A DNA stretch of 64,000 bases from Gordonibacter urolithinfaciens (lineage in GTDB: Bacteria > Actinomycetota > Coriobacteriia > Coriobacteriales > Eggerthellaceae). The position numbers and the translations under genes are program-made. The notes beneath the pieces were generated by a model, which was not told the origin of the DNA, ran no database searches, and saw nothing but the letters and a program-made list of their open reading frames with translations. The stretch covers positions 1,612,001 through 1,676,000 of the forward strand of contig NZ_LT900217.1 of NCBI RefSeq assembly GCF_900199375.1. The letters run 5' to 3'. Shown here piece by piece: positions 30,106-57,054 of this stretch (positions within the stretch are counted from its first letter, which is position 1; each line of letters begins with the position of its first letter).

Positions 30106-30167
30106 ATGGGGCTCGGAAGATCGGTTTCTCCCCGCCTCATTTGGATTGCCTATTGAAGGAGTCTGCC

Positions 30168-30701: not shown

Positions 30702-30704
30702 TTG

Positions 30705-30730
30705 AAAGCCTCCCAATGGGAGGCTTTTTT
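30705..30730 (+). terminator. Terminator of the rpmH-khpB run
   Basis: Stem AAGCCTCCC/GGGAGGCTT with a three-base loop followed by TTTTT, just after the khpB stop codon. Confidence 0.93.
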
Positions 30731-30738
30731 ATAGGCGA

Positions 30739-30754
30739 TGTTTCACGTGAAACA
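30739..30754. other. parS site (exact)
   Basis: TGTTTCACGTGAAACA between the khpB terminator and rsmG. Confidence 0.93.
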
Positions 30755-30809
30755 TTCTGCGTGATGGTACACTTGTGGTGAAAACTCGCCTCGTATCGAA
30801 GGATTGCCC

Positions 30810-31463
30810 ATGCAGCACGAAGCACTCATCGATCTCTATTTGGAGAAGATTCTTGAAGCGAATGAAAAAACGAATCTCACGCGCATCTCTTCGCTCGAAG
30901 AAGCGCGCAAACTTCATATAGAAGACTCGCTAGCCGGACTGGAGGAGTTGATGAAGGCTCCTGAAGGCTTGTACGGCGATCTTGGGAGCGGTGGCGGATT
31001 TCCTGGTGTTCCTTTGGCACTTGAATCAGGGAGGAAGACCATTCTCGTAGATTCCGTTCAGAAGAAAATGGCTATCGTCGGTACAGTTCTTTCAGAGCTT
31101 GGGCTAGCCGAGCAGGTGTCGACCTATGGTGGCCGTATCGAAGATCTGGCTCTCGAGCGCCCTCGCGCGTTCGCAGCGTTGTCCGCACGCGCTCTTTCGA
31201 AGCTGTCGGTTCTCATGGAATTGGCAAGCCCGTTGCTTATAAGCGGCGGGCTGCTGATCTGTTATAAAGCAAACGTGCAAGACGAAGAATGGGAGCATGC
31301 TCTGTCGTTGCAAGAGAAACTTGGTATGCGCCTGTATTCTGATAGAACGCTCATGCTAAGCGATGGTGAAACTTCTCGAAGGATCATAACCTTCGAGAAA
31401 TCAGGTCGCTCTAAGTTAAAGCTTCCCCGTCATGTCGGTTTTGCCCAAAAGAAGCCTCTTTAA
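30810..31463 (+). CDS. rsmG: 16S rRNA (guanine-527-N7)-methyltransferase
   Basis: RsmG (GidB) methylates G527 of 16S rRNA using S-adenosylmethionine. The 217-residue protein shows the cofactor motif GDLGSGGGFPGVPLAL near residue 58 and the later ARAL/KG-like segments. The ATG at 30810 follows AAGGA; a TTG six bases earlier is less likely. It lies between two parS sites and is convergent with the DUF559 gene. Confidence 0.94.
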   Translation: MQHEALIDLYLEKILEANEKTNLTRISSLEEARKLHIEDSLAGLEELMKAPEGLYGDLGSGGGFPGVPLALESGRKTILVDSVQKKMAIVGTVLSELGLAEQVSTYGGRIEDLALERPRAFAALSARALSKLSVLMELASPLLISGGLLICYKANVQDEEWEHALSLQEKLGMRLYSDRTLMLSDGETSRRIITFEKSGRSKLKLPRHVGFAQKKPL

Positions 31464-31471
31464 CCAAAGAA

Positions 31472-31487
31472 TGTTTCACGTGAAACA
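31472..31487. other. parS site (exact)
   Basis: TGTTTCACGTGAAACA nine bases after the rsmG stop codon; symmetry to 31469-31490. Confidence 0.93.
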
Positions 31488-31506
31488 TTCGAGTGTTCGA
31501 GCGACA

Positions 31507-31544
31507 ACAAGCGATGATGTTTCACGTGAAACATCATCGCTTGT
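31507..31544. other. parS site in a 38-bp perfect palindrome
   Basis: The exact parS at 31518-31533 is the centre of an unbroken palindrome whose arms are ACAAGCGATGA and its complement. The stop codon of the convergent DUF559 gene lies inside it. It may double as a terminator for both flanking genes. Confidence 0.92.
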
Positions 31545-31935
31545 TTCGAACTTCTGAAAGAGGGATAGACGAAAGGTCATTCCTTCGGAGTTCGACTTCT
31601 CGGTGAATAGTCTCGCACACTCCTTCGAAATGGTCCCAAATATAAGAGTTTGGGAAACGTAATTCCTTGATTACTTCCATTTCCAAGTAAGTAGTTCGTA
31701 TCTCGTCGTATTTTCGGTGGACCTCCTCGTAATGTTGGGATCCATCGAGCTCTATGCTTAACCTTACTTTTCTGCAATAGAAATCGACGATGTAAGGACC
31801 GACGATAATTTGGTTCGAGAATCGAATGGGATATTCACGGAGGAAGCGAAACCAAAGTATCTTTTCCGCTTCGGTCATATTCTTTCTCATGTATCTGGCC
31901 CGTTCAGCTAGGCGGGTACGCGCAGCACGGTTCAT
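31534..31935 (-). CDS. DUF559 endonuclease-like protein
   Basis: A 133-residue protein of the DUF559 family (PD-(D/E)XK fold, related to very-short-patch repair endonucleases). Core features are the N-terminal MTEAEKILWFRFLRE, then IVDFYCRKVRLSIELDGSQHYE, where Asp, Glu and the Asp of ELDGSQH are candidate metal ligands. The ATG at 31935 follows AAGAAGG; the frame extends further to 32049 without a site. It is noticeably less GC-rich than typical genes here and is the only minus-strand gene between rsmG and parA. The substrate is unknown. Confidence 0.82.
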   Translation of the reverse strand: MNRAARTRLAERARYMRKNMTEAEKILWFRFLREYPIRFSNQIIVGPYIVDFYCRKVRLSIELDGSQHYEEVHRKYDEIRTTYLEMEVIKELRFPNSYIWDHFEGVCETIHREVELRRNDLSSIPLSEVRNKR

Positions 31936-32026
31936 TGGCACCTTCTTAGGTTGATCGACGTTATCATCCAGATCATAACGCCGCAACCTTGCCGGAGAAC
32001 CGTATTTCAATCGGCTCCCAGTTGCT

Positions 32027-32103
32027 TGGACCTTGCAGGAAAACAACATGGCAGCCGGCTGAATCTTGCACCTATCAGACAGGGTTCTTGCATGGATCTT
32101 GCA
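32027..32103 (+). repeat. Three direct repeats of TGRAYCTTGCA with exact 33-bp period
   Basis: Copies begin at 32027, 32060 and 32093. A related CAACCTTGCC occurs 44 bases further upstream, from 31984. The spacing is always a multiple of 11, so copies would lie on one face of the helix. They are 88-164 bases upstream of parA. Confidence 0.6.
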
Positions 32104-32114
32104 AGAACCCTGTC
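32078..32114. promoter_or_regulatory. Strong stem-loop upstream of parA
   Basis: A perfect 15-base stem (32078-32092 with 32100-32114, core GACAGGGTTCTTGCA) with a seven-base loop. No T run follows. It precedes a parS and a TATACT box (32155-32160) that could be the parA -10 element. Confidence 0.55.
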
Positions 32115-32129
32115 AATCCGCCGCTATAG

Positions 32130-32145
32130 TGTTTCACGTGAAACA
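32130..32145. other. parS site (exact) at the parAB promoter
   Basis: TGTTTCACGTGAAACA, 61-46 bases before the parA start and occupying where a -35 element for the TATACT at 32155 would be. ParB binding could repress its own operon; that is inference. Confidence 0.9.
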
Positions 32146-32190
32146 CAAACAAGGTATACTAGCTTCAATGCTCTTGAAAGGGGGCCTTTT

Positions 32191-33174
32191 GTGGGACTGT
32201 TCGATAGTCTGAAACGTGATAGAAAAGCAGCTGAGACTGTCAAATCAAATGAAGAACCCATCATTATCGAGAATACGACGTACGAGGACGATATCGTCAT
32301 AGAGGATATCGAGGTAGTCGAACGTGAAGTTGTTCCCGAGGTGGAAAAGGATATACCCCTTAAACCTATCAAGTCTTTCAAGGACAAAGCACCGGTAAAG
32401 CATGTGGTGGGCCAGACGAAGGTCATGGCGATCATCAACCAGAAAGGCGGCGTCGGGAAATCAACGACCGCGATCAACTTATCTGCTGCGCTCGGTGAAA
32501 TGGGCAAGCAAGTGCTCTTGGTAGATCTCGACCCCCAGGGCAACTCTTCGAGCGGACTCGGTATCGAGAAAAGCCGTGTCGAACACTGCGTTTACGATGT
32601 GCTTTTGAATGATGTACCGGTAGAGGGCGTTATCATTCCCGACGTATGCGAAGGTTTGGACGTTATTCCCGCCACTATCAACCTGGCCGGCGCGGAAGTC
32701 GAGCTGGTTGCCGAGATGGCTCGTGAGAACCGCCTGCGCGACTCGGTTGGCTCGTTGCGTGGTAAATACGATTATGTTTTCATTGACTGTCCCCCCTCGC
32801 TTGGCTTGCTTACCGTAAATGCCCTCGTGGCCGCTGACAAGCTTCTCATTCCTATCCAATGCGAGTTCTATGCACTGGAAGGTGTGACAAAACTCCTCGA
32901 TTCGATGAAACGTGTCAAAACACGCCTTAATCCGTCATTGGATATCTTCGGTGTGTTGTTGACGATGTACGACGGCAGAACCACGCTTTCAAAGCAGGTT
33001 GTCGAAGAAGTGCGCAATTATTTCGGCAAAATTGTTTTCGATACGCTCATTCCGCGTACCGTTAAGCTTTCCGAGGCTCCAAGCTTCGGGCAACCGATAA
33101 CACAGTACGATCCGTCTGGTAAAGGCGCCCAATCGTACGTTGATCTTGCAAAGGAAGTGATAAACCGTGGCTAA
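32191..33174 (+). CDS. parA: Chromosome-partitioning ATPase ParA (Soj)
   Basis: ParA is the nucleoid-bound ATPase that, with ParB-parS, separates new origins. The 327-residue protein has the deviant Walker A KGGVGKST near residue 90, the A' motif LVDLDPQGNSS and Walker B YDYVFIDCPPSLG. About 80 acidic residues precede the ATPase core, an extension absent from short Soj proteins. The start is GTG at 32191 following AAAGGGGG; the upstream frame runs through the repeats and a parS and is not used. Its end overlaps parB by eight bases. Confidence 0.95.
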   Translation: MGLFDSLKRDRKAAETVKSNEEPIIIENTTYEDDIVIEDIEVVEREVVPEVEKDIPLKPIKSFKDKAPVKHVVGQTKVMAIINQKGGVGKSTTAINLSAALGEMGKQVLLVDLDPQGNSSSGLGIEKSRVEHCVYDVLLNDVPVEGVIIPDVCEGLDVIPATINLAGAEVELVAEMARENRLRDSVGSLRGKYDYVFIDCPPSLGLLTVNALVAADKLLIPIQCEFYALEGVTKLLDSMKRVKTRLNPSLDIFGVLLTMYDGRTTLSKQVVEEVRNYFGKIVFDTLIPRTVKLSEAPSFGQPITQYDPSGKGAQSYVDLAKEVINRG

Positions 33175-34228
33175 ATCGACGAAAAGCGGATTGGGACGCG
33201 GTCTGAACTCGTTGTTGGGCGGCTCTTACGAAGAAGCGGTTCCTCCGGAGCCGGCAAAACCGGCACCTCGGGTTGTTATCGAGGCAGAGGAGCTTGACGA
33301 GTCGATGAAGCGCGCGTATTCGGCTCCGGTATCTGCCGAGGCGCCGGCTCCTCCACTTGTGCCGCAGGACAAAGGCGTATCTGCAGATAATTTCATCAAG
33401 GACGAGGACCACGTGACCATTAAGAGCGTGGTGCAGCGCCGAACCGACGAAGTGCCGCTCGAATCAATATCGCCGAATCCCGACCAGCCGCGAACGAACT
33501 TCAAGCAAGAGGAAATCGAGGAGCTTGCGACCTCTATCCAAAAAGACGGTCTACTGCAACCTATTCTCGTAAGGCCGGTCGGTTCTCATAAGTACCAGAT
33601 CATCGCTGGAGAGCGTCGATGGCAGGCATGTCGTTCGATCGGCATGAAAACCGTTCCTATCCGCATCAAGGAAGCGGATGATGATAAGGCGCTCGAGCTG
33701 GCTTTGGTGGAGAATATCCAGCGTTCGGACTTGAATCCCATCGAGGAGGCGTACGGTTACCGTCGAATGATGGAGCGACGCAACCTCACGCAGTCGGAAG
33801 TCGCCCAGGCAATGTCGAAAGGACGGTCGACGGTCGCCAATGCGCTGCGTCTTCTGGAATTGCCAGAAGAGGCCCAGCAATTGCTGTTCGAGGAGAAGAT
33901 CACGGCAGGTCATGCGCGTGCAATCCTGTCCATCCCTTCGAAGGAAGGAAGACTGAAGCTAACCCAGAAGCTGGTGGAAGAAAAGCTTTCGGTCAGGGAA
34001 ACGGAGGCAATTGCACGCCTGCTTGCCGGCAAGAAGAGCCCAGAATCGGCCCAAACGCGCCAACCGACGCCGAAATCATTTAAAACCGTGGCGAAAGCGC
34101 TTAGGGATGTCTTGCACACGAACGTCCGGGTGAAAACCGTGCAGGGCAAGAACAAGATCGAGATCGAGTTCAAGGATGAAGAGGAATTAGAGAAGCTGTT
34201 CGAGGAATTGATAGCATCGACTTCGTAA
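33167..34228 (+). CDS. parB: Chromosome-partitioning protein ParB (Spo0J)
   Basis: ParB is a CTPase clamp that loads at parS and spreads along DNA. The 353-residue protein opens with the ParA-stimulating peptide KSGLGRGLNSLLG. The CTP-binding N-domain has PNPDQPR and the hallmark GERRW; the helix-turn-helix follows (LTQSEVAQAMSKGRSTVANALRLL), then a C-terminal dimerisation region ending in a Glu/Leu-rich helix. About 80 linker residues separate the opening peptide from the N-domain. The start is GTG at 33167 with AAGGAAG upstream. Its targets are almost certainly the many parS sites in this window. Confidence 0.96.
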   Translation: MAKSTKSGLGRGLNSLLGGSYEEAVPPEPAKPAPRVVIEAEELDESMKRAYSAPVSAEAPAPPLVPQDKGVSADNFIKDEDHVTIKSVVQRRTDEVPLESISPNPDQPRTNFKQEEIEELATSIQKDGLLQPILVRPVGSHKYQIIAGERRWQACRSIGMKTVPIRIKEADDDKALELALVENIQRSDLNPIEEAYGYRRMMERRNLTQSEVAQAMSKGRSTVANALRLLELPEEAQQLLFEEKITAGHARAILSIPSKEGRLKLTQKLVEEKLSVRETEAIARLLAGKKSPESAQTRQPTPKSFKTVAKALRDVLHTNVRVKTVQGKNKIEIEFKDEEELEKLFEELIASTS

Positions 34229-34244
34229 TGTTTCACGTGAAACA
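34229..34244. other. parS site (exact)
   Basis: TGTTTCACGTGAAACA immediately after the parB stop codon. Confidence 0.93.
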
Positions 34245-34256
34245 CTTCAGATTAGA

Positions 34257-34287
34257 AAAAAGAGCGCCCTTCCGAGGTGCTCTTTTT
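34257..34287. terminator. Bidirectional terminator between parB and rlmN
   Basis: AAAAAGAGC (34257-34265) pairs with GCTCTTTTT (34279-34287), extended by further pairs inside the loop. It has an A run before and a T run after, so it can serve both convergent genes. Confidence 0.88.
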
Positions 34288-34304
34288 GTGCGATGAGATT
34301 GGAA

Positions 34305-34320
34305 TGTTTCACGTGAAACA
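34305..34320. other. parS site (exact)
   Basis: TGTTTCACGTGAAACA directly abutting the rlmN stop codon. Confidence 0.93.
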
Positions 34321-34321
34321 C

Positions 34322-35353
34322 CTAGAGATGTTTCACAGCATTCTTCAGTTGGCCGCATGCGCCAGCGATATCGCTTCCACGCGAATGCCGTATGGTCGTC
34401 TCTATGCCGCTCTTATTGAGGGACAGGTACCATTGGTTCATTGTTTGGATCTTGCTTGGGGAAAACTCTGACTCTTCGATTTCGTTCAAAGGAATAAGGT
34501 TGACATGGCAGAGCAATCCCTCGCAAAACTCTATGAGTGCTTTCAGGTCGTTTTCGTTGTCGTTAACGCTGTTCATCATGGCATACTCAAGGGTGATGCG
34601 CCTATTCGTACGCTCGAGGTATTTGAGGAGCGCCGTTTTAAGCTTGCCTAGCTCATAGTTTGCAACGCCCGGCATGATCTTGTCACGCGTACGCTGAATT
34701 GCCGCATGAAGCGACACTGCAAGGGTAAACTGTTCGGGTTCGGTGCCGAGGCGGTCGATACCAGAAAGGATACCGCAGGTGGAAAGCGTGATGTGTCGCG
34801 CTCCGATATTGAGGAGTCTCTCGTCGTTGAGAATACGCAGGGCGCTTAGCGTCTGCTCGTAATTGAGGAAGGGCTCCCCTTGTCCCATAGCCACCACATT
34901 GGATACACGTTTTCCCATACGCGTCTGCGCGATCAAAACCTGCTCGACTATTTCTCCAGCCGAGAGATTGCGGGTGAAGCCCTCTTTGCCCGTAGCGCAG
35001 AAGGCACATCCCATGGCACAACCAGCTTGCGTTGAACAGCACACGGTGAGCCTGCCATCGGATGAAGGTATGGCAACTGTCTCTACCCGTGCCCCGTCAT
35101 GGTAAGAAATTACATACTTTGTTGTTCCATCTTGCGAAGTTTGAGAATCCGCGACATTGGAAACGAAAAGGGGATAGTCGATGGAAAGTTGCTCACGCAA
35201 AGTTCGAGGAAGGTTCGTCATCTCGTCATAGCTGCTCGCATTATGCAAGTAGAGCCATTCGTAAAGCTGTTTTGCCCGAAAAGCCGGTTGACCGAGTTCC
35301 TTCATCAGCTGTTGAAGTTCTTCGAGCGAATATGTTTTGATGGGTTTTATCAT
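34322..35353 (-). CDS. rlmN: Dual-specificity RNA methyltransferase RlmN
   Basis: A radical-SAM enzyme that methylates C2 of A2503 in 23S rRNA and A37 of some tRNAs. The cluster motif CAMGCAFC near residue 110, the GQGEPF segment, and the later Cys in GACGQL, matching the acceptor cysteine, are present. The product has 343 residues. The ATG at 35353 is chosen because TATAAT lies only eight bases upstream, implying a leaderless message; the frame extends seven codons further. It diverges from ddl with a parS between. Confidence 0.93.
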   Translation of the reverse strand: MIKPIKTYSLEELQQLMKELGQPAFRAKQLYEWLYLHNASSYDEMTNLPRTLREQLSIDYPLFVSNVADSQTSQDGTTKYVISYHDGARVETVAIPSSDGRLTVCCSTQAGCAMGCAFCATGKEGFTRNLSAGEIVEQVLIAQTRMGKRVSNVVAMGQGEPFLNYEQTLSALRILNDERLLNIGARHITLSTCGILSGIDRLGTEPEQFTLAVSLHAAIQRTRDKIMPGVANYELGKLKTALLKYLERTNRRITLEYAMMNSVNDNENDLKALIEFCEGLLCHVNLIPLNEIEESEFSPSKIQTMNQWYLSLNKSGIETTIRHSRGSDIAGACGQLKNAVKHL

Positions 35354-35386
35354 GGCCGCATTATATCTCATCATAGTTGTTTGAAA

Positions 35387-35402
35387 TGTTTCACGTGAAA
35401 CA
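35387..35402. other. parS site (exact) between divergent rlmN and ddl
   Basis: TGTTTCACGTGAAACA, symmetry to 35385-35404. It lies between the rlmN TATAAT on the minus strand and a ddl TATACT (35407-35412), so bound ParB could touch both promoters. Confidence 0.92.
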
Positions 35403-35452
35403 TTGCTATACTCAGCAAGCTATTGGTTCTTCAACGAAAGAAGGTTCGTTTC

Positions 35453-36400
35453 ATGGTTGCATGCGTTGACCCCCAGCATTGCCATGTTGCGCTGCTCGTT
35501 GGCGGCATCAGCGGTGAACGTGAAGTATCGCTTGCGTCGGGCGAGGGAGCACACCAGGCTTTGGCGGAGGCGGGTTTTCAAGTGACGGTACTTGATCCTG
35601 CTGACAAAGAGGACCTGAAGAAGCTCATCGATGGCGGATTCGATGTGGCATTCATCTGTCTGCACGGCAAATACGGGGAAGATGGAACGTTGCAGGGAAT
35701 GCTCGAGATGATTGGACTTCCTTATATTGGTTCGGGCGTGTGGTCAAGTGCCCTTGCCATGGATAAGGTGAAATCAAAGGTCTTTTACCAAGCGGCCGGC
35801 ATTCCAACACCCCCATCTGTCACATTGCGTTCTGCTAACCCTGCTGACATCGATATGATTGTAGACAGCTTGGGAGAGCACTGCGTGGTGAAACCTGCCA
35901 CAGAGGGAAGCGCTTTGGGTGTTTTCATAGTCGATGAGCGAAAAGCACTTCAAGAGGTGATTGAGAGAGTTCGCGAGCTTGATAACGAGATATTGATCGA
36001 GCGCTATATAAAAGGAAAAGAATTGACCGTGGCAGTAATCGGCAACGATGATCCGCGAGCTCTTCCGATTATCGAGATCGTTCCAGTAAACGACTTCTAT
36101 GATTACGAGGCAAAATACAAGCCGGGCGCTTCGCAGCATCTTTGCCCGGCCCCTCTTTCGGAAGAAACGACGAAGCAGATCCAGGAAATGGCCGTCAAAG
36201 CGCATAAGGTCCTCGCTTGTGCTGGCGTGTCTCGGTCGGACTTCATTCTGGATGACGAGGGAAAGTGGTGGATACTTGAGACGAATACCATCCCGGGTAT
36301 GACGGGTACTTCGCTGCTCCCCGACGCGGCCCGCGCTGATGGGATATCGTTTCCCGAACTTTGTACGATGCTGATTGAATTCGCACTGGAGAAAAAATGA
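35453..36400 (+). CDS. ddl: D-alanine--D-alanine ligase
   Basis: An ATP-grasp ligase that makes D-Ala-D-Ala for peptidoglycan. The 315-residue protein has the N-terminal ALLVGGISGEREVSLASG, the grasp loop CVVKPATEGSALGV, and the metal-binding end ILETNTIPGMTGTSLLP. In the active-site region the motif EREVS carries the usual Glu and Ser. The ATG at 35453 follows GAAGG. It is followed by three parS sites and is convergent with a hypothetical gene. Confidence 0.94.
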   Translation: MVACVDPQHCHVALLVGGISGEREVSLASGEGAHQALAEAGFQVTVLDPADKEDLKKLIDGGFDVAFICLHGKYGEDGTLQGMLEMIGLPYIGSGVWSSALAMDKVKSKVFYQAAGIPTPPSVTLRSANPADIDMIVDSLGEHCVVKPATEGSALGVFIVDERKALQEVIERVRELDNEILIERYIKGKELTVAVIGNDDPRALPIIEIVPVNDFYDYEAKYKPGASQHLCPAPLSEETTKQIQEMAVKAHKVLACAGVSRSDFILDDEGKWWILETNTIPGMTGTSLLPDAARADGISFPELCTMLIEFALEKK

Positions 36401-36559: not shown

Positions 36560-37201
36560 TTAGAATACTCCACATGTTTTCAGCCCGAACAGGGCAAGCG
36601 CAACTACAGCGAGTATGAATATCCAACTAACTATGTAGCAGCCCTTGTTACCTTTGCGTCCTTGCTCGATAAGCTTCTCCGACATCTTGCGTCGGCCCTT
36701 CATGATCACCGTTCCTGGCTTCTTGGTTGGAAGAGGCACCGTTTTCGAAGGTGACCAAGTGCCGTTGCTATCAAGTATCTGTTTGATGCCCTGCTCGCCA
36801 AGGTCGACTTCGGGGCGGATTCCTTCCATCAAGCGCTGGGCGACGTTGCCTGCAAATGTCGTGAAAGCCTGCTCGTGCTCTGGTGAGAAGCAGAGAATGG
36901 CAACCTCGCCCCAGTACTCGCCTGGTTCCGGGCTGTCCGTGAAGGCGACGAAAGAGAGCAGCGCCTTGATCATCCAATTGCGGGCGTGAAGTACGCGGAG
37001 CCGTCTCGTTGTATCCGCATCGAGGAAGGCGACGCGGTGTCCGAAACGGTTTACTATCCAGGCTACGGCCGTGCCTTCTTCGGTGACGAATTCCACATCG
37101 AAAAGGTCGCCGACAAGATTGTCGGCTCCAAGCAGTACCGCAGCGTCCTTTTTGGATGGTGTATCGAAGCGTGCGTAAAATCCAGTGTAGGTGGTTTCCA
37201 T
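36560..37201 (-). CDS. Hypothetical protein with C-terminal membrane anchor
   Basis: A 213-residue protein that I do not recognise. Residues 1-155 are soluble, a basic patch (KGRRKMSEKLIEQGRKG) follows, and one membrane helix at about 190-208 ends the protein, as in tail-anchored proteins. The ATG at 37201 has GAGGGG six bases upstream. It is divergent from the DinG-type gene and convergent with ddl, and parS sites flank it on both sides. Confidence 0.72.
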   Translation of the reverse strand: METTYTGFYARFDTPSKKDAAVLLGADNLVGDLFDVEFVTEEGTAVAWIVNRFGHRVAFLDADTTRRLRVLHARNWMIKALLSFVAFTDSPEPGEYWGEVAILCFSPEHEQAFTTFAGNVAQRLMEGIRPEVDLGEQGIKQILDSNGTWSPSKTVPLPTKKPGTVIMKGRRKMSEKLIEQGRKGNKGCYIVSWIFILAVVALALFGLKTCGVF

Positions 37202-37247
37202 GGTATCCCCTCGAGCGGTTCAGGTGCAGGATGAAGTGTACCATGAA

Positions 37248-37263
37248 TGTTTCACGTGAAACA
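37248..37263. other. parS site (exact) at the start of the DinG-type gene
   Basis: TGTTTCACGTGAAACA; it would be translated in frame (NVSRET) if the gene began at ATG 37243 rather than 37270. Confidence 0.92.
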
Positions 37264-37269
37264 TTTCTG

Positions 37270-40200
37270 ATGTTGGATGGGCTTTTACCCGGGCAAGGGC
37301 GTTTTGGTTTGTACGAACAGTTGAGAGATGGTAGGCTGATCGTTATGGAAAAGCACAGCGAGCAGGCGCATGGTATCCTGCAAACTTTTATAAGCGATGG
37401 GACGCCTGCAGCTATCGAGGCGCGTTACGCTTCGCTGCCGGCAATCGCCGCTGAAAGCGATTATGGGGATCTTGATCGCAATATCGTGGTCCTCGACACC
37501 GAGACGACCGGTTTCTCGTTCAATCACGACGAGCTGACGCAGATCGCCGCCGCCCGCATGGAGCAGGGGAGGATCGTCGACTGGTTCATCACGTTCGTGA
37601 ACCCGGGGAAGCCTATTCCGGAGGATGTCGCCTATTTGACCGATATCCACGACGAGGACGTGGCGGATGCGCCACTTCCATCCGATGCCTTGTCTGATCT
37701 GGTAAAATTCGTGGGAGATGCGAAAATAGTCGCGCATAATGCCGAGTTCGACCGCACGTTCACCACCCGCCATCCCAGTGGTTATCCGCTGCTGGAGAAC
37801 ACGTGGATCGATTCGCTCGACCTTGCGCGCATCGCGCTTCCGCGTTTGAAATCGCATCGCCTGCTCGACTTGGTGAAGGCCTTCGGCGCGCCGCTCTCGA
37901 CGCATCGGGCCGATGCCGATGTCGAGGCCACCTGCTCCATCTTCCGCATCCTCTTGGCGGCTGTCGGAGCGATGCCCGTGCCGCTCGTGCGCGAGATAGC
38001 GCGCATGGCGACGCCCGAGCAATGGCCGACCCAGGTCGTGTTCGATTATTTCGCCGGCAAAAGAGGCGATGATGATATCATATGCGCAGGTCAAACGAAA
38101 GAATTGGGAAAACCAGAATCCGAGGCAGCACGTCAGCGCTTCTCGCTGCGCGCCCTGCGCCGTGAGCGTGTGGCGAAGTTCGACCGCAAGCCGAAGACGG
38201 ATGCCGATGCCATAGCAGCCGATCCCCTCCGCGATCTGGCATTCCCTTCTGACGAGGAGATCACCACCGCCTTCGCCGCCGAAGGGTTGGTGGGAGGCCT
38301 CTATCGCAACTTCGAGCCGCGTGCCGAGCAACTGGCGATGGCCGAGGCCGTGCGCGCCGCCTTCGCCGCCTCCGAGAACCTCATGGTGGAGGCCGGTACG
38401 GGCGTGGGAAAGTCTATGGCCTATTTGGTTCCGGCAGCCTTGACGGCCCGCAAGAACAATATTGCCGTGGGTATTGCGACGAAGACCAATGCCCTGCTCG
38501 ACCAGCTTGTCTACCATGAGCTGCCGGCGCTGGGCACCGCGCTTGCGGAGGCGGGTATCACCGGTGGAAACGCTCCGTGCGATAATGCTGATGCCCTTGG
38601 TGAAAGCCCTGAAGGGCTCACCTATGCCGCGCTCAAGGGATTCTCCCATTACCCGTGCCTGCGGAAGATCGACCGCTTGACCGTCGAAGGGCCCGGCACG
38701 CGCCTCGTTGCCGGCAAGGAGCAGTCGCAGGCTCCCGCGCTCGCCGCGCTGCTCTCGTACATCGAGCAGACCGAGTACGACGACATGGACGGCCTGAAGA
38801 TCGATTACCGCCTGCTTCCGCGTTTCGCCATCACCACGACGAGCCACGACTGCCTGCGACGCAAGTGTCCCTATTTCGGCACGTCGTGTTTCGTTCACGG
38901 CGCCCGCCGCCGCGCCGAGAGCGCGGATATCGTGGTAACGAACCATAGCCTTCTGTTCTGCGATCTGGCTGCCGACGGGGGATTGCTGCCGCCGATCCGC
39001 TACTGGGTGGTCGACGAGGCTCACGGTGCCGAGGCCGAGGCTCGCCGCGCCTTCTCGCTGGCACTTTCGGCCGAGGATATCCTGCGCCTGACCACGCGCT
39101 TATCTGCCGACGAGGCGTCGCGCAATGTGTTCCTGCGCGCCGAGCGCCGTGTGATCGCGCCGGAGAAAGGGGAGGGCGCTGTGCTGTTCTACGCCCTCAC
39201 CAGCAAGGCGCGCGCCGCCGGCAAGGTCTACGGCGAAGCCGCCCGGGAGTTCACCTCCCACTTGAAGGACCTGTTGTTCTTCGATGCGAACAAGCGCGGA
39301 AAGGCCTACGACTACGTGGAGCTTTGGCTCAACGACGACATCAGGAGCAGCGAGACGTTCTCTTACGTGGCGTCGCTCGGCCGCGTGATGGCCGATGCGG
39401 CCGAGAAGCTCGTCACCCCGTGCCAGGAACTGGTGGGATACCTGGAGGACGTCGATGGCGCCGCCGACGTGCAGCGTGAGATAGCCTCCCTCGCTATGGA
39501 ATTGAAAGACCAGATCAGGGCCGTCGAGCTGATTCTCGTGCAAGCGCCGGATGGCTACGCCTACGCGGCGTCGCTCTGCCGCAAGAACGACAAGGCCACC
39601 GACAAGCTGGAGGCCCTGCTGCTCAATGTGGGCGAAGCGATGAACGAGACGCTGTACGCCCGCACCCATTCCGTGGTGTTCGCCAGCGCCACGCTGGCGG
39701 TGGACGAGAAATTCGACGCCTTCGAGGCGGCCCTGGGCTTGAACACCGGCGAACTGTCGCACTGCCGCGCTTGCAAGCTGGATTCGAGCTACGACTTCGA
39801 CGCGCATATGACGGTGTACGTGGCCTCGGACATGCCCGAACCGAACGACCCTGCCTACCTGGAGCGTTTGCAGGGGTTGCTCGTGGACGTGCACCGCGCG
39901 CAGCAGGGGTCGATGCTCACGCTGTTCACGAACCGCCGCGAGATGGAACGTTGCTTCGATGTGGTGCAGCCGGCGATCAAGACCGACGACCTGCGCCTCG
40001 TGTGCCAGAAGTGGGGCGTGTCGGTCAAAGGCCTGCGGGACGATTTCCTCGCGGACGAGCACTTGTCGCTGTTCGCGCTCAAGAGCTTCTGGGAAGGATT
40101 CGACGCACCGGGCGCCACGCTCAAGGGCGTCGTCATTCCGAAGCTGCCGTTCGCGAAGCCCACGGACCCGCTCTCATGCGAGCGTGCTGCACGCGACGAC

Positions 40201-40440
40201 CAGGCATGGAGGCGTTACGTGCTGCCTCAGGCCGTGCTGGAGACGAAGCAGGCGGCCGGCCGCCTCATCCGCAAGGCGGACGATCGCGGCGTGCTCATCC
40301 TGGCGGACACGCGCCTGGTGACGAAGGGCTACGGCAAGGCGTTCCTGAACTCGCTGCCCAGCCGCACCATCAAGGTGTGCACGTGTGCCGAGATCGTGGC
40401 GGAGCTCGCAGCGGCCGCTGACGACGAGTCGCCCGCCTGA
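37270..40440 (+). CDS. DinG-type helicase with N-terminal 3'-5' exonuclease domain
   Basis: A protein of about 1056 residues. The DEDDh exonuclease domain (about 71-235) shows VVLDTETTGF, then IVAHNAEFD and HRADADVEAT. The XPD/DinG-like helicase follows, with Walker A EAGTGVGKS near 372, four cysteines between about 463 and 542 (CLRRKCPYFGTSC) suited to an iron-sulphur cluster, and the DEAH box VVDEAHG near 581. The C-terminal motif QAAGRLIRKADDRGV matches motif VI. This exonuclease-helicase fusion is known in Gram-positive DinG. The start is uncertain: ATG 37243 is also possible and would include a parS in the coding sequence. Confidence 0.88.
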   Translation: MLDGLLPGQGRFGLYEQLRDGRLIVMEKHSEQAHGILQTFISDGTPAAIEARYASLPAIAAESDYGDLDRNIVVLDTETTGFSFNHDELTQIAAARMEQGRIVDWFITFVNPGKPIPEDVAYLTDIHDEDVADAPLPSDALSDLVKFVGDAKIVAHNAEFDRTFTTRHPSGYPLLENTWIDSLDLARIALPRLKSHRLLDLVKAFGAPLSTHRADADVEATCSIFRILLAAVGAMPVPLVREIARMATPEQWPTQVVFDYFAGKRGDDDIICAGQTKELGKPESEAARQRFSLRALRRERVAKFDRKPKTDADAIAADPLRDLAFPSDEEITTAFAAEGLVGGLYRNFEPRAEQLAMAEAVRAAFAASENLMVEAGTGVGKSMAYLVPAALTARKNNIAVGIATKTNALLDQLVYHELPALGTALAEAGITGGNAPCDNADALGESPEGLTYAALKGFSHYPCLRKIDRLTVEGPGTRLVAGKEQSQAPALAALLSYIEQTEYDDMDGLKIDYRLLPRFAITTTSHDCLRRKCPYFGTSCFVHGARRRAESADIVVTNHSLLFCDLAADGGLLPPIRYWVVDEAHGAEAEARRAFSLALSAEDILRLTTRLSADEASRNVFLRAERRVIAPEKGEGAVLFYALTSKARAAGKVYGEAAREFTSHLKDLLFFDANKRGKAYDYVELWLNDDIRSSETFSYVASLGRVMADAAEKLVTPCQELVGYLEDVDGAADVQREIASLAMELKDQIRAVELILVQAPDGYAYAASLCRKNDKATDKLEALLLNVGEAMNETLYARTHSVVFASATLAVDEKFDAFEAALGLNTGELSHCRACKLDSSYDFDAHMTVYVASDMPEPNDPAYLERLQGLLVDVHRAQQGSMLTLFTNRREMERCFDVVQPAIKTDDLRLVCQKWGVSVKGLRDDFLADEHLSLFALKSFWEGFDAPGATLKGVVIPKLPFAKPTDPLSCERAARDDQAWRRYVLPQAVLETKQAAGRLIRKADDRGVLILADTRLVTKGYGKAFLNSLPSRTIKVCTCAEIVAELAAAADDESPA

Positions 40441-40468: not shown

Positions 40469-41860
40469 ATGGGCAAGCGAAACGACAAACTGGGACGGGC
40501 CGCCCACATCAAGCGACATACCGTGGGCACGTCGAACGAGATATCGTTCAGCGTGCTCGACGCCGCTAAAAACGAGCTGGAGGGGGACGTCGGGAAGGAC
40601 GCCGCCGCGCGCCCTTCCCGGTTCGGTCATGTGTCTCTGTTCACCTTGCCGCTACGTCGGAAGAAGAGCATCGCCACCCCCACAAAAGAGCGCGGTCTGC
40701 TGCTCTCGAGCGGTGAATTCGCCTCGGCGGAGAACCCGACCCCTGCTTCTTCTTTGGGAACGGTAGACGTCGGCTCTCCCAAATCCGATGTTGCGGGTCC
40801 GACTACGGTGCCAACAGGAGCGCCGCGCAAGACGGCCGCTGCCGGCTCCGCGGCGCCGGCAGGATCCGCCGCACCTGCCCTGCCCGCTCCCTCGAAGGTT
40901 CGTTCTCCCGAGGAAGAGATAGCCCTCCGCAAGGCCCGGCGCCGCCTTCATCGCATGTTGGCGGCTACCCTCGTGGTAGTGGTGGGTCTGTGCCTTGCGG
41001 GCGCGGGCGGTTGGTATCTTTACCAGGATCATCAACGGCATTTGCATCAGGTGGCCCAACTCGACGAGGCGCTCGATCTCATCAGGGAGGCTGACGAGAC
41101 GGTGGTGGCACTGGACGGGATCGTGGCGAATCCGCTCGATGCCGGCTCCTTGGCCCAAGCCGACAGCGTGCTCGCAAAGCTCCCCGCTGCGCTCGCACAG
41201 CTTGAGGAGGCCGATGCTGCCGCGCGCCGCGTGTCGGTTGACCTGCGCGAGTCCGAGGGCAAGGAGGCGGCGAACCAGACCGTTGCGGCCACAGGTGCGC
41301 GTACCGCGCTGATCGAGAGCGGCCGGCAGATCGTCGAGCAGGCGCAGCGGGCGGACGAGGCGGCGCGCGCCGTCAGGGAGGCATGGCAGAGGGTCGTCGA
41401 GGCCGATGCCCTCGCCCGCGATGCCGCCGCCTTGGTGGCCGATACCACCGCAGAGCATGTGACGGCCTCCAAGGATAAGACCAATGCGGCGGTCGGAGCC
41501 TTCGCAGATGCCCAGGCGGCGCTCGAAGCGCTTGACTCCGCGTATGCAGACGTCGATCTGGCGGGCCCGCTCGACTACGTGGCAAAGCGAATAGAGGCCA
41601 TGGGCCACGCGCTGGCGTCCGATGACGCGTTCCTGGCAAAAAACAAGGAGGAGGCCGTCGCCCAGAACGATGCCTACAACCGTGCGGATGCCGAGGCCGC
41701 GACGCTGGCCGCAGGCCTTCCCGACGATGTGGCGCAGCTGGTTTTCGATGCCTACGATCAGGCAACCGGCACGCTTTTCGAGACGTATTCAACGGCTCGT
41801 TCACAAGCTGGAGCAGCGGATGCGTTTCTTCGTGATTATTTGGGAACCACCAGCAAATAG
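40469..41860 (+). CDS. Hypothetical single-span membrane protein with coiled coil
   Basis: A 463-residue protein that I do not recognise. The first 150 residues are cytosolic and low complexity (Ala, Pro, Ser, Thr). One membrane helix lies at about 165-187 (MLAATLVVVVGLCLAGAGGWYLY). The remaining 275 residues are an Ala/Glu/Asp-rich helical region, likely coiled coil and outside the cell, with heptad-like leucines. The ATG at 40469 has GGAG eight bases upstream. It lies 28 bases after the DinG-type gene, so the two may be co-transcribed. Confidence 0.75.
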   Translation: MGKRNDKLGRAAHIKRHTVGTSNEISFSVLDAAKNELEGDVGKDAAARPSRFGHVSLFTLPLRRKKSIATPTKERGLLLSSGEFASAENPTPASSLGTVDVGSPKSDVAGPTTVPTGAPRKTAAAGSAAPAGSAAPALPAPSKVRSPEEEIALRKARRRLHRMLAATLVVVVGLCLAGAGGWYLYQDHQRHLHQVAQLDEALDLIREADETVVALDGIVANPLDAGSLAQADSVLAKLPAALAQLEEADAAARRVSVDLRESEGKEAANQTVAATGARTALIESGRQIVEQAQRADEAARAVREAWQRVVEADALARDAAALVADTTAEHVTASKDKTNAAVGAFADAQAALEALDSAYADVDLAGPLDYVAKRIEAMGHALASDDAFLAKNKEEAVAQNDAYNRADAEAATLAAGLPDDVAQLVFDAYDQATGTLFETYSTARSQAGAADAFLRDYLGTTSK

Positions 41861-41923: not shown

Positions 41924-44900
41924 ATGCCGGAAATTCTAGACCACGTTGCATATTTGTCGCAGCAAATAGGCCCGCGTCCTGCCGGAACGGAAGAAGAGCA
42001 GCAGGCTGCGCTGTACATAACCGAGCAGATGCAGAAGGAAGCTGGCCTGTCGGCCGTCATCGAGGATTTCAGCGGTGCCGGAAGAGCCGACGCCCCCCGC
42101 GCGATCTGCTGTGGGGCCACTTTGGTCGTGGCCGTGCTGGCACTGTTCCTTTCCGTCATGGTTATCCCTGCTCTTATCGTGTCCCTGATCGCCTTGTTGC
42201 TGTTGGTTGCCGAGGTGCTCGACCGACCGGTGTTGTCAAAGACATTCGCGCGGGGGGTCAGCCAGAATGTCGTTGCGAAATACGAGCCCGGCTACACGTC
42301 CGAGGCAGGCGGCTCGCGGCGCCGCAAGATCATTCTCGTGGCTCGTTACGACAGCGGCAAGGTGCGCTCCGAGTTGAAGCAGCCCTTCCTTTCGGCGCTG
42401 CCCGTGCTCCGTTGGGTGAACCTCGGCGCCATGGCGGCCGTCCCGTTGCTGCTTGTTTTGCGGGCGACGCTCTTCCTCCATGCTGCCGGCACCACCGAGA
42501 TAGTGCTCAACGTGCTCATGGCCATCGTGCTCGTACTCGTGGCGCTGCCGGTTCTTGAAGCGCTTGCACACAAGTTTGCGGCCTATAACGAGGCGGCGAA
42601 CTGCAACGCCTCAGGCGTCTCCGTGCTGCTTGACGTGGCGCGTCGGGTGGGCCGCGGGCGGGTGAGCGAGGCCGAGCTGGCCGCGCGCGCCGAAGGGGCT
42701 GCCATCCATGGCGAGGAGGCTGCTCGTGCAGCCGGCCTCGTGCCCGAGGGAGTGGAGATCGTCTATGCGGCTTCCAACGTGAAACCTCCCGAGCTTGCTC
42801 CCCAAAGCGAGGCCGCCCGCCTGGCGGCCGCTAAGGCCGCCGTTGCCGCGCTCACGGGCAAGCCGGTAAGCGGACGCCTGTCCACCGACTTGGCCGAGAA
42901 TCTTGTCCAGGTGAAGGAGCCCCCGCTGCCGAGTCCGACCGACGTGGACTTCCAGTCGCAGCGCGGCGAGACCCGCGAGGCGTTCACCACCATTCCTGCC
43001 GAGACGGTGCAGGCGGCGCTTGCGAACGCAGAGGCTGCTGCTTTGAACGGGGCCGAAGCAGCCGCAGCAGCTGCCGCGGGTATCCCGACATCCTTCCCGC
43101 CTGCTCCCGCACCGGCTGCCGAGCCCGTTTCCAGCGACGGGGTGCCTGATTGGTTCAAGAAAGCTCAGGAGAAGGCTAAGAAACCCGTCGACAACAAGCA
43201 GGTGCACCGCTCACGCTATGCCGATGCCCTTGATGCTGCCCTCGGTGACAACGCGGAAGGTCCCGCCGAGGAACCTCCGACGCCGCCGTCCGACATGGAG
43301 GTGCGCCTGCAGAGTATGCGCGAAGGCATCATGGAGGTCAAAGCGCCGCAAGCAAATCGCTCGGATGAATCTCCGGCGGGCGGGCAAACGGAAACCTTCG
43401 CGAACACCGTCGCCGTCGCGATGGACGGCGCCGCTCCCGAAACGGTTCCTGCGCAGGCTTCGGCGACCATGCCGGAGGTGCGCTTCAAATCTCATGATGG
43501 TGCGGATGCCCCTGATACGGGTGCTACGTGCGCTATGCCGCCCATCGATGTGAGCGAGCTGCGCCTTGGCGACGTGCCGCCCATGGGAGATGTGCCCATG
43601 CCCTCGTTCCTCGATCCGGCGAAGGCTCAGGCCGAGAAGCTCGAGGAGCGCGGCGAGGTGAACCGCACCGCGAATCGCGTCGACGTGACCGCCGCGCCAA
43701 TCGGCGACAGCGGCCGTATCGAGCTCCAGTCGGCGCAGGGCGCCCCTTCGGTGCAGCCTGCTGGTGCACCCGTACCTGTGTCCCCTGAAGGCGGCGAAGC
43801 TGCTCCTGCTTCGCAACGTCGTCCCATCGTCCTGCCCGACATTGGCGTGGCGGCTGCCAACTTAACGCCCATCACCGAGCTGCCCAAGCAGCGTGCCCCG
43901 CTCGCCGAGGCCGAGACGTCCGGCAAGAGTGCGGCCAAGAGCCTTCTCACCATGCTGCCGTCCATCGAGCCCGTATCGGATACCGCCATCCCTGCAGTCG
44001 GCGATGCTCCTGCGGTGCCGGCTCCCCAGCGACCCGACCTGCGCGCAGCGCTTCCCTCGTTGTCCGGTGCCATCGCGCGACCCGACGAGGCTGCCGTCAG
44101 CACAGCCGGCGCATTCGTCCCGGCCGGCGCCACCGGGGCGTTCGCCCCGGTAGGCGATGAGTTGCTCGAGAACGTCGATCCCGACGACATCTACGTGGAT
44201 GATGCCGACGATTCCGCCTATGAGGGCGAGTATACCGAAACGGGTGCCTTCGCAGGTACCGGTTACGTGGAAATGCCGAAGTCGCGCGCGCATCGCTTCC
44301 TCGACAAGCTGCGTTTCCGCAAGCGCAAGGAAGAAGAGGAGCCCACGCCTCAAGAATGGCTCGAAGTAGACGAAACGTTCGATGCCCGTACCGCCGGCGC
44401 AGCGCGCGGCGGTTGGGAGAGTTTCCGCGAAGAGCAAAGTGCCGCCCCGGACTACTACGAGGAGACGTACGAGGACGATGCCTACGTCGACGACGGGGAA
44501 GAGGACTCTTACCTGGCTCCCTTGGTGGGGAAGAGCCCCGAGGACACGTTCGCGGGCGTCACGAGCGCCTCTCCCGCCGCTGGTTTTGCCGATGACGATT
44601 TCTCGCTCGACGATGTGGACGAGTACGAGGATGACGCGTTCCGCTCCGATGCCGGTCGACGCTGGAACGGCGGTGGATTCTCGCGCCTGCGCATGGGCCG
44701 TGCCAACGACGTGACGCCCGAGGAGCTGAACCCCGAGGACGACCTGCGGGCCGCCCATCCGGACGACCCGGCGACACCTCCCGAACTCAAGGAGATATAC
44801 CAGTTCCGCAACCCCGACATCAATACCGAGGTGTGGTTCGTCGCGTTGGGCTCCGAGCTGGCGCAGCACGGCGGCATGCATGCGTTCCTCGCCGAGCACA

Positions 44901-45256
44901 ACCAGGATCTGCGTGGTTCCATCATCATCGATATCGACGCGTTGGGTGCGGGCGAGCTCTGCATGATCGAGCGCGAAGGAATGTATCGCAAGGCCAAGGC
45001 CTCCTCCCGCATGAAGCGCTACACGAAGAAGGCATCGCAGGCCACCGGCCTGTCAATTGGCGCCGCGTCTATCATGTGGGAGGACAGTGCGGCTTCAATT
45101 GCAATCAAGCAGGGCTTCCAAGCTATGCACCTCGCCGGCATGGATGGTGCGAAACCGGCGTTCTTCGCGCAAGGGGACGATGTTCTCGAGAACATCGACG
45201 AGGAGACGTTGAACAACAATGCGGAATTCGTTATGGAGTTGTTGAAGAATATATAA
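41924..45256 (+). CDS. Degenerate M28-peptidase-like membrane protein split by a large disordered insert
   Basis: A 1110-residue protein. Its two ends look like one M28 aminopeptidase fold: IGPRPAGTEEEQQAALYI at 15-32, KIILVARYDSG at 135-145 and NCNASGVSVLLDVAR at 226-240, then the second half from about 955 (VWFVALGSELAQHGGMHAF, IIDIDALG). Metal ligands look lost: His becomes Arg141, the bridging Asp becomes Cys227 and the EE pair becomes SE. Membrane helices lie at about 60-98 and 165-212. About 700 Ala/Pro/Glu-rich residues separate the halves. The ATG at 41924 has AAAGG; an ATG at 41879 is possible. TATACT lies at 41863-41868. Confidence 0.75.
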   Translation: MPEILDHVAYLSQQIGPRPAGTEEEQQAALYITEQMQKEAGLSAVIEDFSGAGRADAPRAICCGATLVVAVLALFLSVMVIPALIVSLIALLLLVAEVLDRPVLSKTFARGVSQNVVAKYEPGYTSEAGGSRRRKIILVARYDSGKVRSELKQPFLSALPVLRWVNLGAMAAVPLLLVLRATLFLHAAGTTEIVLNVLMAIVLVLVALPVLEALAHKFAAYNEAANCNASGVSVLLDVARRVGRGRVSEAELAARAEGAAIHGEEAARAAGLVPEGVEIVYAASNVKPPELAPQSEAARLAAAKAAVAALTGKPVSGRLSTDLAENLVQVKEPPLPSPTDVDFQSQRGETREAFTTIPAETVQAALANAEAAALNGAEAAAAAAAGIPTSFPPAPAPAAEPVSSDGVPDWFKKAQEKAKKPVDNKQVHRSRYADALDAALGDNAEGPAEEPPTPPSDMEVRLQSMREGIMEVKAPQANRSDESPAGGQTETFANTVAVAMDGAAPETVPAQASATMPEVRFKSHDGADAPDTGATCAMPPIDVSELRLGDVPPMGDVPMPSFLDPAKAQAEKLEERGEVNRTANRVDVTAAPIGDSGRIELQSAQGAPSVQPAGAPVPVSPEGGEAAPASQRRPIVLPDIGVAAANLTPITELPKQRAPLAEAETSGKSAAKSLLTMLPSIEPVSDTAIPAVGDAPAVPAPQRPDLRAALPSLSGAIARPDEAAVSTAGAFVPAGATGAFAPVGDELLENVDPDDIYVDDADDSAYEGEYTETGAFAGTGYVEMPKSRAHRFLDKLRFRKRKEEEEPTPQEWLEVDETFDARTAGAARGGWESFREEQSAAPDYYEETYEDDAYVDDGEEDSYLAPLVGKSPEDTFAGVTSASPAAGFADDDFSLDDVDEYEDDAFRSDAGRRWNGGGFSRLRMGRANDVTPEELNPEDDLRAAHPDDPATPPELKEIYQFRNPDINTEVWFVALGSELAQHGGMHAFLAEHNQDLRGSIIIDIDALGAGELCMIEREGMYRKAKASSRMKRYTKKASQATGLSIGAASIMWEDSAASIAIKQGFQAMHLAGMDGAKPAFFAQGDDVLENIDEETLNNNAEFVMELLKNI

Positions 45257-55951: not shown

Positions 55952-56974
55952 ATGGATAGCACGGTGATGTTGGGACACGGAAGCGGCGGTACGATGATGA
56001 AACGCATCATCGACGACGTGTTCTTCGCTGCCTACGCGGGTGACGAGCTGCTGCGCGGCGACGATGCCGCCGTGCTGCCCGCGCCGGCGCCGGGCGAGCG
56101 GCTGGCATTCTCCACGGACAGCTTCGTGGTGACGCCTCATTTCTTTCCTGGCGGCGACATCGGTCGGCTCGCCGTGTGCGGCACGGTGAACGATGTGGCC
56201 ACGAGCGGCGCGACACCCCGCTACCTGAGCGTGGGTTTCGTTCTGGAAGAGGGTTTCCCCATCGACGATCTCAGGCGCATCTGCAACTCCATGGCGGAGT
56301 GCGCCCGTGAGGCGGGCGTGGCGCTGGTGACGGGCGATACGAAGGTGGTCAACCGTGGCCATGGCGACGGCGTGTTCATCAACACGAGCGGCGTGGGAAC
56401 GCTGGCGCCGGACGTGGAACTGGGCGGCGCTCGGTGTCGCCCGGGCGACAAGGTGCTGGTCACTGGAACGCTGGGCGACCACGGCATCACCATCATGAGC
56501 TGCCGCGAGTCTCTGTCGTTCTCGGCCGACCTTGAAAGCGATGCCGCCCCGCTCAACCATCTCATCGCCGACGTGCTGGCGGCCGCCCCCCATACGCGCT
56601 GCTTCCGCGACCCCACGCGCGGCGGCCTGGCCTCCACGCTGAACGAGCTTGCCGCGCAGTCGGACACCGACATCACCGTGGAGGAGGATGCCGTGCCGGT
56701 GAAACCGGCCGTGCTGGGCGCCTGCAAGATGCTGGGCTACGATCCGCTGCAGGTGGCGAACGAGGGCAAGATGGTATGCGTGGTGGCGCCCGACGAGGCC
56801 GACGCCGCGCTCGCCGCCATGCGCGCGAACCGCTACGGCGCGGATGCTGCGATCATCGGCGAGGTGGCTGCAGCGCAGCCCGAGCGCGGCCCCAAGGTGT
56901 TCCTGCGCACGGCGTTCGGAGGCACGCGCATCCTCGACATGCTCGTAGGCGAGCAGCTGCCCCGGATCTGCTAG
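55952..56974 (+). CDS. hypE: Hydrogenase maturation protein HypE
   Basis: HypE dehydrates the thiocarbamoyl group on its C-terminal cysteine to make the cyanide ligands of the [NiFe]-hydrogenase site. The 340-residue protein has the opening MLGHGSGGTMMKRII, the ATP-binding core (FSTDSFVVTPHFFPGGDIG, GTVNDVATSGATP) and the diagnostic C-terminal PRIC. The ATG at 55952 has AAGGAG five bases upstream. The other hyp genes and the hydrogenase itself are not in the window. Confidence 0.95.
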   Translation: MDSTVMLGHGSGGTMMKRIIDDVFFAAYAGDELLRGDDAAVLPAPAPGERLAFSTDSFVVTPHFFPGGDIGRLAVCGTVNDVATSGATPRYLSVGFVLEEGFPIDDLRRICNSMAECAREAGVALVTGDTKVVNRGHGDGVFINTSGVGTLAPDVELGGARCRPGDKVLVTGTLGDHGITIMSCRESLSFSADLESDAAPLNHLIADVLAAAPHTRCFRDPTRGGLASTLNELAAQSDTDITVEEDAVPVKPAVLGACKMLGYDPLQVANEGKMVCVVAPDEADAALAAMRANRYGADAAIIGEVAAAQPERGPKVFLRTAFGGTRILDMLVGEQLPRIC

Positions 56975-57015
56975 AGTCGGCTGGCGGATCCGAGGTCCCG
57001 CGGAGAGTATTCTAC

Positions 57016-57054
57016 GCATGCCGAGGGCTCCTGTGCGGAGGCCCCTCGGCATGC
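57016..57054 (+). terminator. Hairpin after hypE
   Basis: GCATGCCGAGG/CCTCGGCATGC with additional inner pairs (GCTCC/GGAGG); no T run. It starts 42 bases after the hypE stop. Confidence 0.6.

Follow-up and report, generated by a model that had tools for sequence, protein, structure and literature searches.

A very likely M28-fold membrane pseudopeptidase of Gordonibacter urolithinfaciens, interrupted by a long disordered insert

What can a bacterial membrane protein do when its peptidase fold seems to have lost its metal ligands and to have been split by hundreds of disordered residues? The question is raised by a gene in the window analysed here, a 64,000-nucleotide stretch of Gordonibacter urolithinfaciens (contig NZ_LT900217.1, positions 1,612,001 to 1,676,000) whose host genome is one contig of 3.29 Mb. 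The gene (41924..45256, plus strand, stop codon included) encodes a protein of 1110 residues, described in an earlier note, made from the letters alone, as an M28 pseudopeptidase reused as a membrane scaffold or receptor. Its reading frame could also begin at 41879; we favour the start at 41924 because all 48 aligned orthologues have a methionine there or no more than eight alignment residues away, and residue numbers refer to this 1110-residue form. Orthologue comparison, an AlphaFold2 model and structural superposition lead us to regard the protein as very likely a pseudopeptidase of the M28 fold.

A single-sequence Pfam search recognised only the C-terminal half (PF04389, at 21.4 bits barely above the threshold of 21.3), and NCBIfam gave no match for the protein. 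Profiles of each half, built from 48 orthologues, found M28 at both ends: the N-terminal half matched YwaD (6hc6) with an E value of 5.9e-15 in three stretches (residues 6–54, 105–142 and 216–244), and the C-terminal half matched 2ek8 (E 3.4e-4) and 6hc6 (E 0.01). AlphaFold2, given the complete protein and an alignment of 57 sequences, yielded predicted local distance difference test scores (pLDDT, read by tens of residues) of mostly 86–97 for residues 1–240, 70 for 121–130 and 241–250, and 94–97 for 971–1110; the predicted template modelling score of the whole protein is 0.51, with 493 of its 1110 residues below a pLDDT of 50. VIA-align superposes the model on 6hc6 chain C with a Z of 32.0 and a root-mean-square deviation of 2.0 Å over 246 residues at 24% identity (model range 2–1110). 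In the model, residues 1–250 (41924..42673, holding two membrane hairpins) and 964–1110 (44813..45253, both plus strand) together build one M28 domain, so that the halves noticed earlier at the two ends of the protein do join in a single fold. Fusion of unrelated ends is ruled out by this joint fold, and chance likeness to M28 by the Z of 32. The best conserved stretch is the first-helix region of the domain, residues 16–30, with a mean identity to the window protein of 0.97 among 57 proteins (the window protein counted). The soluble M28 aminopeptidases, B. subtilis YwaD/BSAP (6hc6) and that of Aneurinibacillus (2ek8), share the fold over 246–276 residues (Z 31–32), with the same order of elements and the same conserved first helix, but they are zinc enzymes, whereas the window protein has lost the metal site and gained two membrane hairpins and about 700 inserted residues.

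We take the five M28 metal ligands to be H, D, E, D/E and H, a set also readable from compact relatives, and scored six positions in one alignment shared by all proteins (H, D, E as base, E as ligand, D, H). The window protein has R141 at the first ligand His position (42344..42346), C227 at the bridging Asp position (42602..42604), E978-L979 replacing the catalytic Glu-Glu pair (44855..44860), D1005, and A1082 replacing the last ligand His (45167..45169; all plus strand); only D1005 is kept of the five ligands. The exchanges of Arg for His and Cys for Asp had been recognised before. The Glu pair, earlier read as SE, is better read as E978-L979, with the general-base position kept and Leu at the ligand position in an ungapped alignment; two gaps would turn it into SE, and the site is somewhat ambiguous by one residue. 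The loss of the last His is a change absent from the earlier note. Positions 141 (H in 25, R in 20 and N in 11) and 227 (C in 36, otherwise mainly N, S and D) vary among the 57 aligned proteins, namely the window protein and 56 of 68 named relatives, so R141 and C227 are merely a local state; Cys-based chemistry at C227 was rejected on the same count of 36.

The named relatives come from the best 80 of 250 confirmed stretches, a set therefore biased towards close relatives, among which other Gordonibacter records are the closest. These stretches gave 74 loci, from which six (L081, L114, L123, L128, L147 and L149) were dropped for want of both halves in one frame; five half-only proteins were also dropped. 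In one record, Gordonibacter pamelaeae 7-10-1-b (L004, L081), the gene is split over two frames at about residues 266–268 of a 1125-residue form, owing either to an error in sequencing or to a genuine frameshift.

Within the order, which we take to be Coriobacteriales in the GTDB sense, site positions were read in 117 rows: 31 Eggerthellaceae proteins from a genome set, the 68 named Eggerthellaceae-type proteins, which overlap with the former, and 18 from other families; without duplicates these make 98 distinct cores, 80 of them Eggerthellaceae-type. The full H-D-E-E-D-H site occurs in none of the 117 rows and none of the 98 cores. The ligand Glu is present in 0 of 31, 1 of 68 and 7 of 18 proteins, respectively, and the last His in 0 of 31, 0 of 68 (two gaps) and 7 of 18; the general base is Glu in none of the 18, and some His lies up to 7 residues before or up to 5 after the last-His column in 5 of the 68. 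The site is complete in 12 of 23 proteins from other orders of the class, hand-picked for family spread rather than at random from 62 such genomes with a match; four more lack the base alone, and seven are more degenerate. It is complete also in 6 of 17 compact relatives. The expectation in the earlier note that orthologues would not retain all ligands therefore holds inside the order and fails outside it. With 12 of 23 intact, a class-wide reading of all orthologues as dead is rejected and the loss is lineage-specific, which does not revive the window protein: with one fold modelled and no complete six-residue site among the distinct order proteins, the idea of a pseudopeptidase stands.

Sequence and model agree on four membrane helices, arranged as two hairpins (57–75/77–98, 42092..42217; 155–182/190–218, 42386..42577; both plus strand), which bears out both the membrane character of the protein and the two membrane regions proposed for its first half. 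The hairpins are insertions in M28, since the N-half profile match falls in three stretches separated by them, and because each membrane segment is a hairpin, the M28 body, the insert and both termini share one side. No N-terminal signal sequence was seen on inspection, the M28-side flank 99–113 is rich in Lys and Arg (2.54 Lys/Arg versus 0.76 Asp/Glu, n=117), and the loop between the third and fourth helices is nearly devoid of them (0.03, n=117). The charges argue moderately that this shared side would be the cytosolic one.

The fold is interrupted by a mostly disordered stretch of 713 residues (251–963; 42674..44812, plus strand), missing from all 17 compact relatives. The Ala/Pro/Glu-rich tract of about 700 residues described earlier is thus recovered (A 18.3%, P 10.1%, E 9.6% for residues 251–950), but it is also rich in Asp (8.3%), and it is not featureless. 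A motif at residues 407–436 (VPDWFKKAQEKAKK...RSRYADAL; 43142..43231, plus strand) contains W410, R429 and S430, three residues that all 57 aligned Eggerthellaceae-type proteins share, and the chief conserved region is a block at residues 728–834 (44105..44425, plus strand). The core of the block, 812–834 (WLEVDETFDARTAGAARGGWESF), has counterparts throughout the class with the pattern WLGVD..FDAR..G..SWDNF, mostly preceded by a basic stretch; the block is present in 23 of 23 other-order proteins and in most order proteins, and in 0 of 17 compact relatives. In its own genome the block matches itself alone, and against PDB sequences the best E value was 0.038, most other rows listed being viral haemagglutinin chains at E values of at least 0.085, taken as chance. 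The number of residues between the halves ranges from -2 to 10 in the 17 compact relatives, from 107 to 388 in the 23 other-order proteins, from 329 to 1059 in 18 proteins from other families of the order and from 464 to 1278 in Eggerthellaceae-type proteins. We define a Coriobacteriia membrane M28 family by an insert with the WLGVD..FDAR..G..SWDNF block between the M28 halves, into which the window protein falls.

Members are kept with great regularity. A search of 60 genomes, its own included, found a match in 57 (49 of the 50 good ones), and across the class a match occurs in 115 of 119 genomes, exactly one each (106 of 106 good genomes); outside the order, 62 of 66 class genomes have one, and the 23 read at site level were drawn from these. 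Relatives of the N-terminal half are present in 96 of 296 Actinomycetota genomes, and those read outside the class include compact proteins that align through the membrane segments, with open frames of 385–481 residues in 16 of 17 and of 580 in L207. In these compact proteins, found in other Actinomycetota such as G330, G144 and G112, the C half also matches and the fold is unbroken; by sequence they are the probable founding family. Eleven of the 17 (L207, L210, L211, L213 and L215–L221) have degenerate sites and are likely to be further pseudopeptidases without an insert; the G112 genome carries one such protein beside an intact one.

A tree of 70 core sequences was calculated with the six site columns removed, leaving out 19 Eggerthellaceae rows of the genome set and all 68 named rows. 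The order and the Eggerthellaceae each form one clade (support 100 for both). In the unconstrained tree the intact compact proteins stand beside intact class proteins (support 85) and the base is not resolved; holding the 53 class proteins as one clade gave a likelihood better by 3.75 log units with a p value in the approximately unbiased test (p-AU) of 0.605, so a single origin of the insert is not rejected, and we accept the class clade on this test together with the shared insert. On the unrooted tree the intact or non-intact state requires three parsimony changes among class rows. Unrooted parsimony cannot separate gain from loss, and we read these changes as losses because regain of a complete dinuclear site is implausible. 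Since 12 of 23 other-order orthologues are intact and carry a shorter insert with the same motif, insertion probably came first, catalysis being lost later and more than once. A second class clade with degenerate sites, separate from the order, comprises L233–L236, L239 and L241, with inserts of 107–388 residues.

Ratios of nonsynonymous to synonymous substitution (dN/dS) were obtained by a counting method for four pairs, the window protein against Gordonibacter loci L080, L082 and L086, and L080 against L082; with dS of 0.4–2.2 they are rough. They are 0.09–0.14 for core residues 1–250, 0.03–0.04 for core residues 964–1110, 0.13–0.19 for the insert and 0.01–0.04 for block 728–834, which is therefore constrained as tightly as the better part of the core. 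An M28 fold with a degenerate site is here held under purifying selection.

Immediately upstream, and ending 63 bases ahead of the M28 gene, lies the gene of a putative partner of 463 residues (40469..41860, plus strand), which has a disordered N-terminus of 146 residues, one membrane helix (about 163–181) and a helical bundle on the opposite side. The bundle is modelled confidently (pLDDT 96–99 by tens for residues 171–460), with one long helix running through the membrane, and the disordered N-terminus carries a motif with invariant G20, N23, E24, S26 and L30 in 53 rows (the window protein and 52 of 62). No Pfam family scored above cut-off, NCBIfam gave no match and Foldseek found no fold at an E value of 0.001 or better; in VIA-align a designed protein leads, followed by PhoU (Z 12.3), TorS (10.5), spectrin (10.4) and others, in the background range of helical bundles. 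By tblastn the partner was matched in 65 of 74 named loci, several misses being contig ends. At E values below 1e-20 it was found in 9 of 24 genomes from other families of the order and in 3 of 3 of family f11, which belongs to another order, and in 0 of 9 genomes with compact M28 proteins. A second set, of 35 genomes, gave a match at an E value of 1e-10 or better in 26: in 25 of the 30 belonging to other orders, in the one from its own family and in none of the four from family f4. In 23 of these 26 the partner gene lies no more than about 9 kb upstream of the M28 gene, on its contig and strand, and in three it is on another contig of a draft. The upstream protein is likely to be an associate of the M28 protein, though not an obligatory one.

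What, then, is being selected? We hold it to be probable, if only just, that an ancient membrane M28 peptidase kept a scaffold or adaptor role that outlasted the enzymatic one. The ancestor would have been a compact M28 metallopeptidase on the cytoplasmic side of the membrane. In the ancestor of the class Coriobacteriia an unstructured, motif-bearing segment may have entered a loop of the catalytic fold and so probably endowed the enzyme with binding as a second role. In Coriobacteriales, and independently in other parts of the class, decay of the metal site would then have followed while fold, hairpins and insert motifs stayed under selection, the insert growing to 329–1278 residues in Coriobacteriales. 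Loss of the metal site throughout the order, with fold, hairpins and motifs retained, suggests that binding and not hydrolysis is selected; a rigid body fixed in the membrane, from which a long, mobile arm with conserved short motifs extends, has the geometry of a scaffold or tether; and one copy kept in nearly all relatives points to a probable non-enzymatic core job at the cell membrane. Today the protein would most likely be a membrane-anchored cytosolic scaffold or adaptor, its M28 body a docking module and the short linear motifs of its arm recruiting cytosolic partners. Where the single-pass upstream protein is present, physical contact with it may couple the M28 protein, through the bundle beyond the membrane, to the envelope. 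The scaffold half of the role proposed in the earlier note, 'scaffold or receptor', is thus the one we favour, both halves being plausible.

Several observations weigh against this reading. The motif block has no match in full-length L041, L052, L133 and L141 and only a weak one in L038 and L056. The remaining M28-side flanks do not repeat the charge pattern of residues 99–113, one being roughly balanced (2.23 Lys/Arg versus 1.91 Asp/Glu) and two acidic or neutral. L045, an order-level orthologue, keeps all five metal ligands and lacks the general base alone, so some proteins of the order may still bind metal. The partner, finally, was not found in 15 of 24 genomes from the order's other families (at E values below 1e-20), in 5 of 30 from other orders (at 1e-10 or better) or in any of 10 from families f4 and f10; most such genomes keep the M28 protein, which is why we do not consider the partner obligatory.

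An unlikely, though the best surviving, alternative is that the protein is a receptor or sensor, its dead M28 pocket binding peptides such as cell-wall or protein fragments and relaying the signal together with the upstream protein. The high conservation of residues 16–30 would fit this reading, and the confident helical domain of the partner weakly resembles sensor domains (TorS, Z 10.5; McpS, 10.1; PilJ, 9.6), but these values are helical-bundle background, with PhoU and spectrin equally high, many genomes keep the M28 protein without the partner, and the motif-rich insert stays unexplained.

Improbable as a separate explanation, though overlapping with the scaffold reading, is a phosphorylation platform, in which Ser/Thr kinases would modify T-G-[AS]-F sites at T737 and T773 of the insert and FHA proteins would dock there. 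T737 is Thr in 49 of 57 proteins and position 773 Thr or Ser in 49 of 57, each with Phe at +3 in the window protein, and five matches to kinase domains and four to FHA domains occur in its own genome. As far as one account of mycobacterial kinase-dependent Thr sites describes them, they have acidic residues upstream and a hydrophobic residue at +3 (PMC7164672); T773 does have acidic residues upstream, but T737 has none directly upstream, the mycobacterial preference at +3 is for Leu or Val (PMC7164672), and the T-G-[AS]-F match was made post hoc, after the sequence had been seen.

We consider it very unlikely that the protein has remained an enzyme whose metal site is altered or mononuclear and which resembles glutaminyl cyclases or makes use of the conserved E978. 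Position 978 is Glu or Asp in 55 of 57 aligned proteins, M28-fold glutaminyl cyclases are close structural neighbours (7cjg, Z 29.4) and L045 retains its five ligands; against this, four site positions are variable or lost in the family of the window protein (the first H is mostly H/R/N, the bridging D mostly C/N/S, the second E mostly L and the last H mostly G/A), and the last is His in none of 99 Eggerthellaceae-type rows (two gaps). Decay of a gene without function, which the fast change of the catalytic positions and the highly variable insert length might suggest, is rejected as practically negligible, given a dN/dS of 0.01–0.19 in every part and all four pairs, single copies in 115 of 119 genomes, and a reading frame that is full-length in 48 of 54 orthologue loci; of the remaining six, five are truncated by the end of a contig and one is split.

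Further upstream lies an exonuclease-helicase gene (37156..40440, plus strand; Pfam RNase_T, DEAD and Helicase_C_2), presumably DinG-like and probably a housekeeping gene, which is the upstream neighbour in most named loci (69 of 74 by tblastn); in L113, L143 and L149 it adjoins the M28 gene without a partner match. In other orders (L225–L227, L253–L258 and L260–L262) a GGDEF gene and a gene matching Lit, the lipoprotein transacylase, follow downstream of the M28 gene on its strand, as do TrkA-type genes in 10 of 13 loci; with these families assigned on representatives only, the gene order suggests no clear function. Elsewhere in the window, positions 24001–36000 have a G+C content of 0.51–0.56 against 0.59–0.67 in the rest and are possibly an acquired stretch, and the AT skew reaches its window maxima, 0.13 and 0.27, at 56001–64000.

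M28-fold pseudopeptidases are already known as a kind, mainly from eukaryotic receptors and from translocon or secretase parts. Foldseek matched the window protein to nicalin, of the BOS complex of the multipass translocon (7tm3 chain 7 and 9c7u; E 2.2e-5). Nicalin is likewise an M28-fold membrane protein and sits in a multi-subunit assembly; it is not a peptidase. In contrast to the window protein it is eukaryotic, its M28 domain is lumenal, and it is not known to have a long disordered insert or interleaved membrane hairpins. One account of the Nicalin-TMEM147-NOMO complex models nicalin on nicastrin (PMC7505659). The M28-fold domain of transferrin receptor 1 superposes on our model with a Z of about 26–27. 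This, too, is a non-peptidase whose M28 domain was reused for binding, in an extracellular animal receptor with other extra domains. Our searches of the open-licence literature turned up no paper on the Coriobacteriia membrane M28 family; what is new is its architecture, its standing as a core component across a whole bacterial class and the graded series that leads from enzyme to pseudoenzyme.

The gene thus very likely encodes a bacterial M28 pseudopeptidase that probably faces the cytosol and whose catalytic fold is interrupted by membrane hairpins and by hundreds of disordered residues. Its presence as a single copy in nearly all sampled genomes of the class, common gut bacteria among them, should mark a core process that our searches did not find described. 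A bolder extension of the scaffold reading, which we put forward tentatively and think unlikely as a whole, is that the family forms a membrane assembly platform across the Coriobacteriia, which gained its arm inside the fold and then lost catalysis independently in several lineages, the scaffold function of the arm being selected, perhaps under kinase/FHA control and, in genomes that have the single-pass partner, perhaps with a link through it to the envelope; if true, a core process would depend on the platform, for instance envelope growth or division. Living relatives display the stages, from compact enzyme through enzyme with insert, loss of the base and loss of the site to the giant insert, which makes it directly testable whether a binding role precedes the loss of catalysis.

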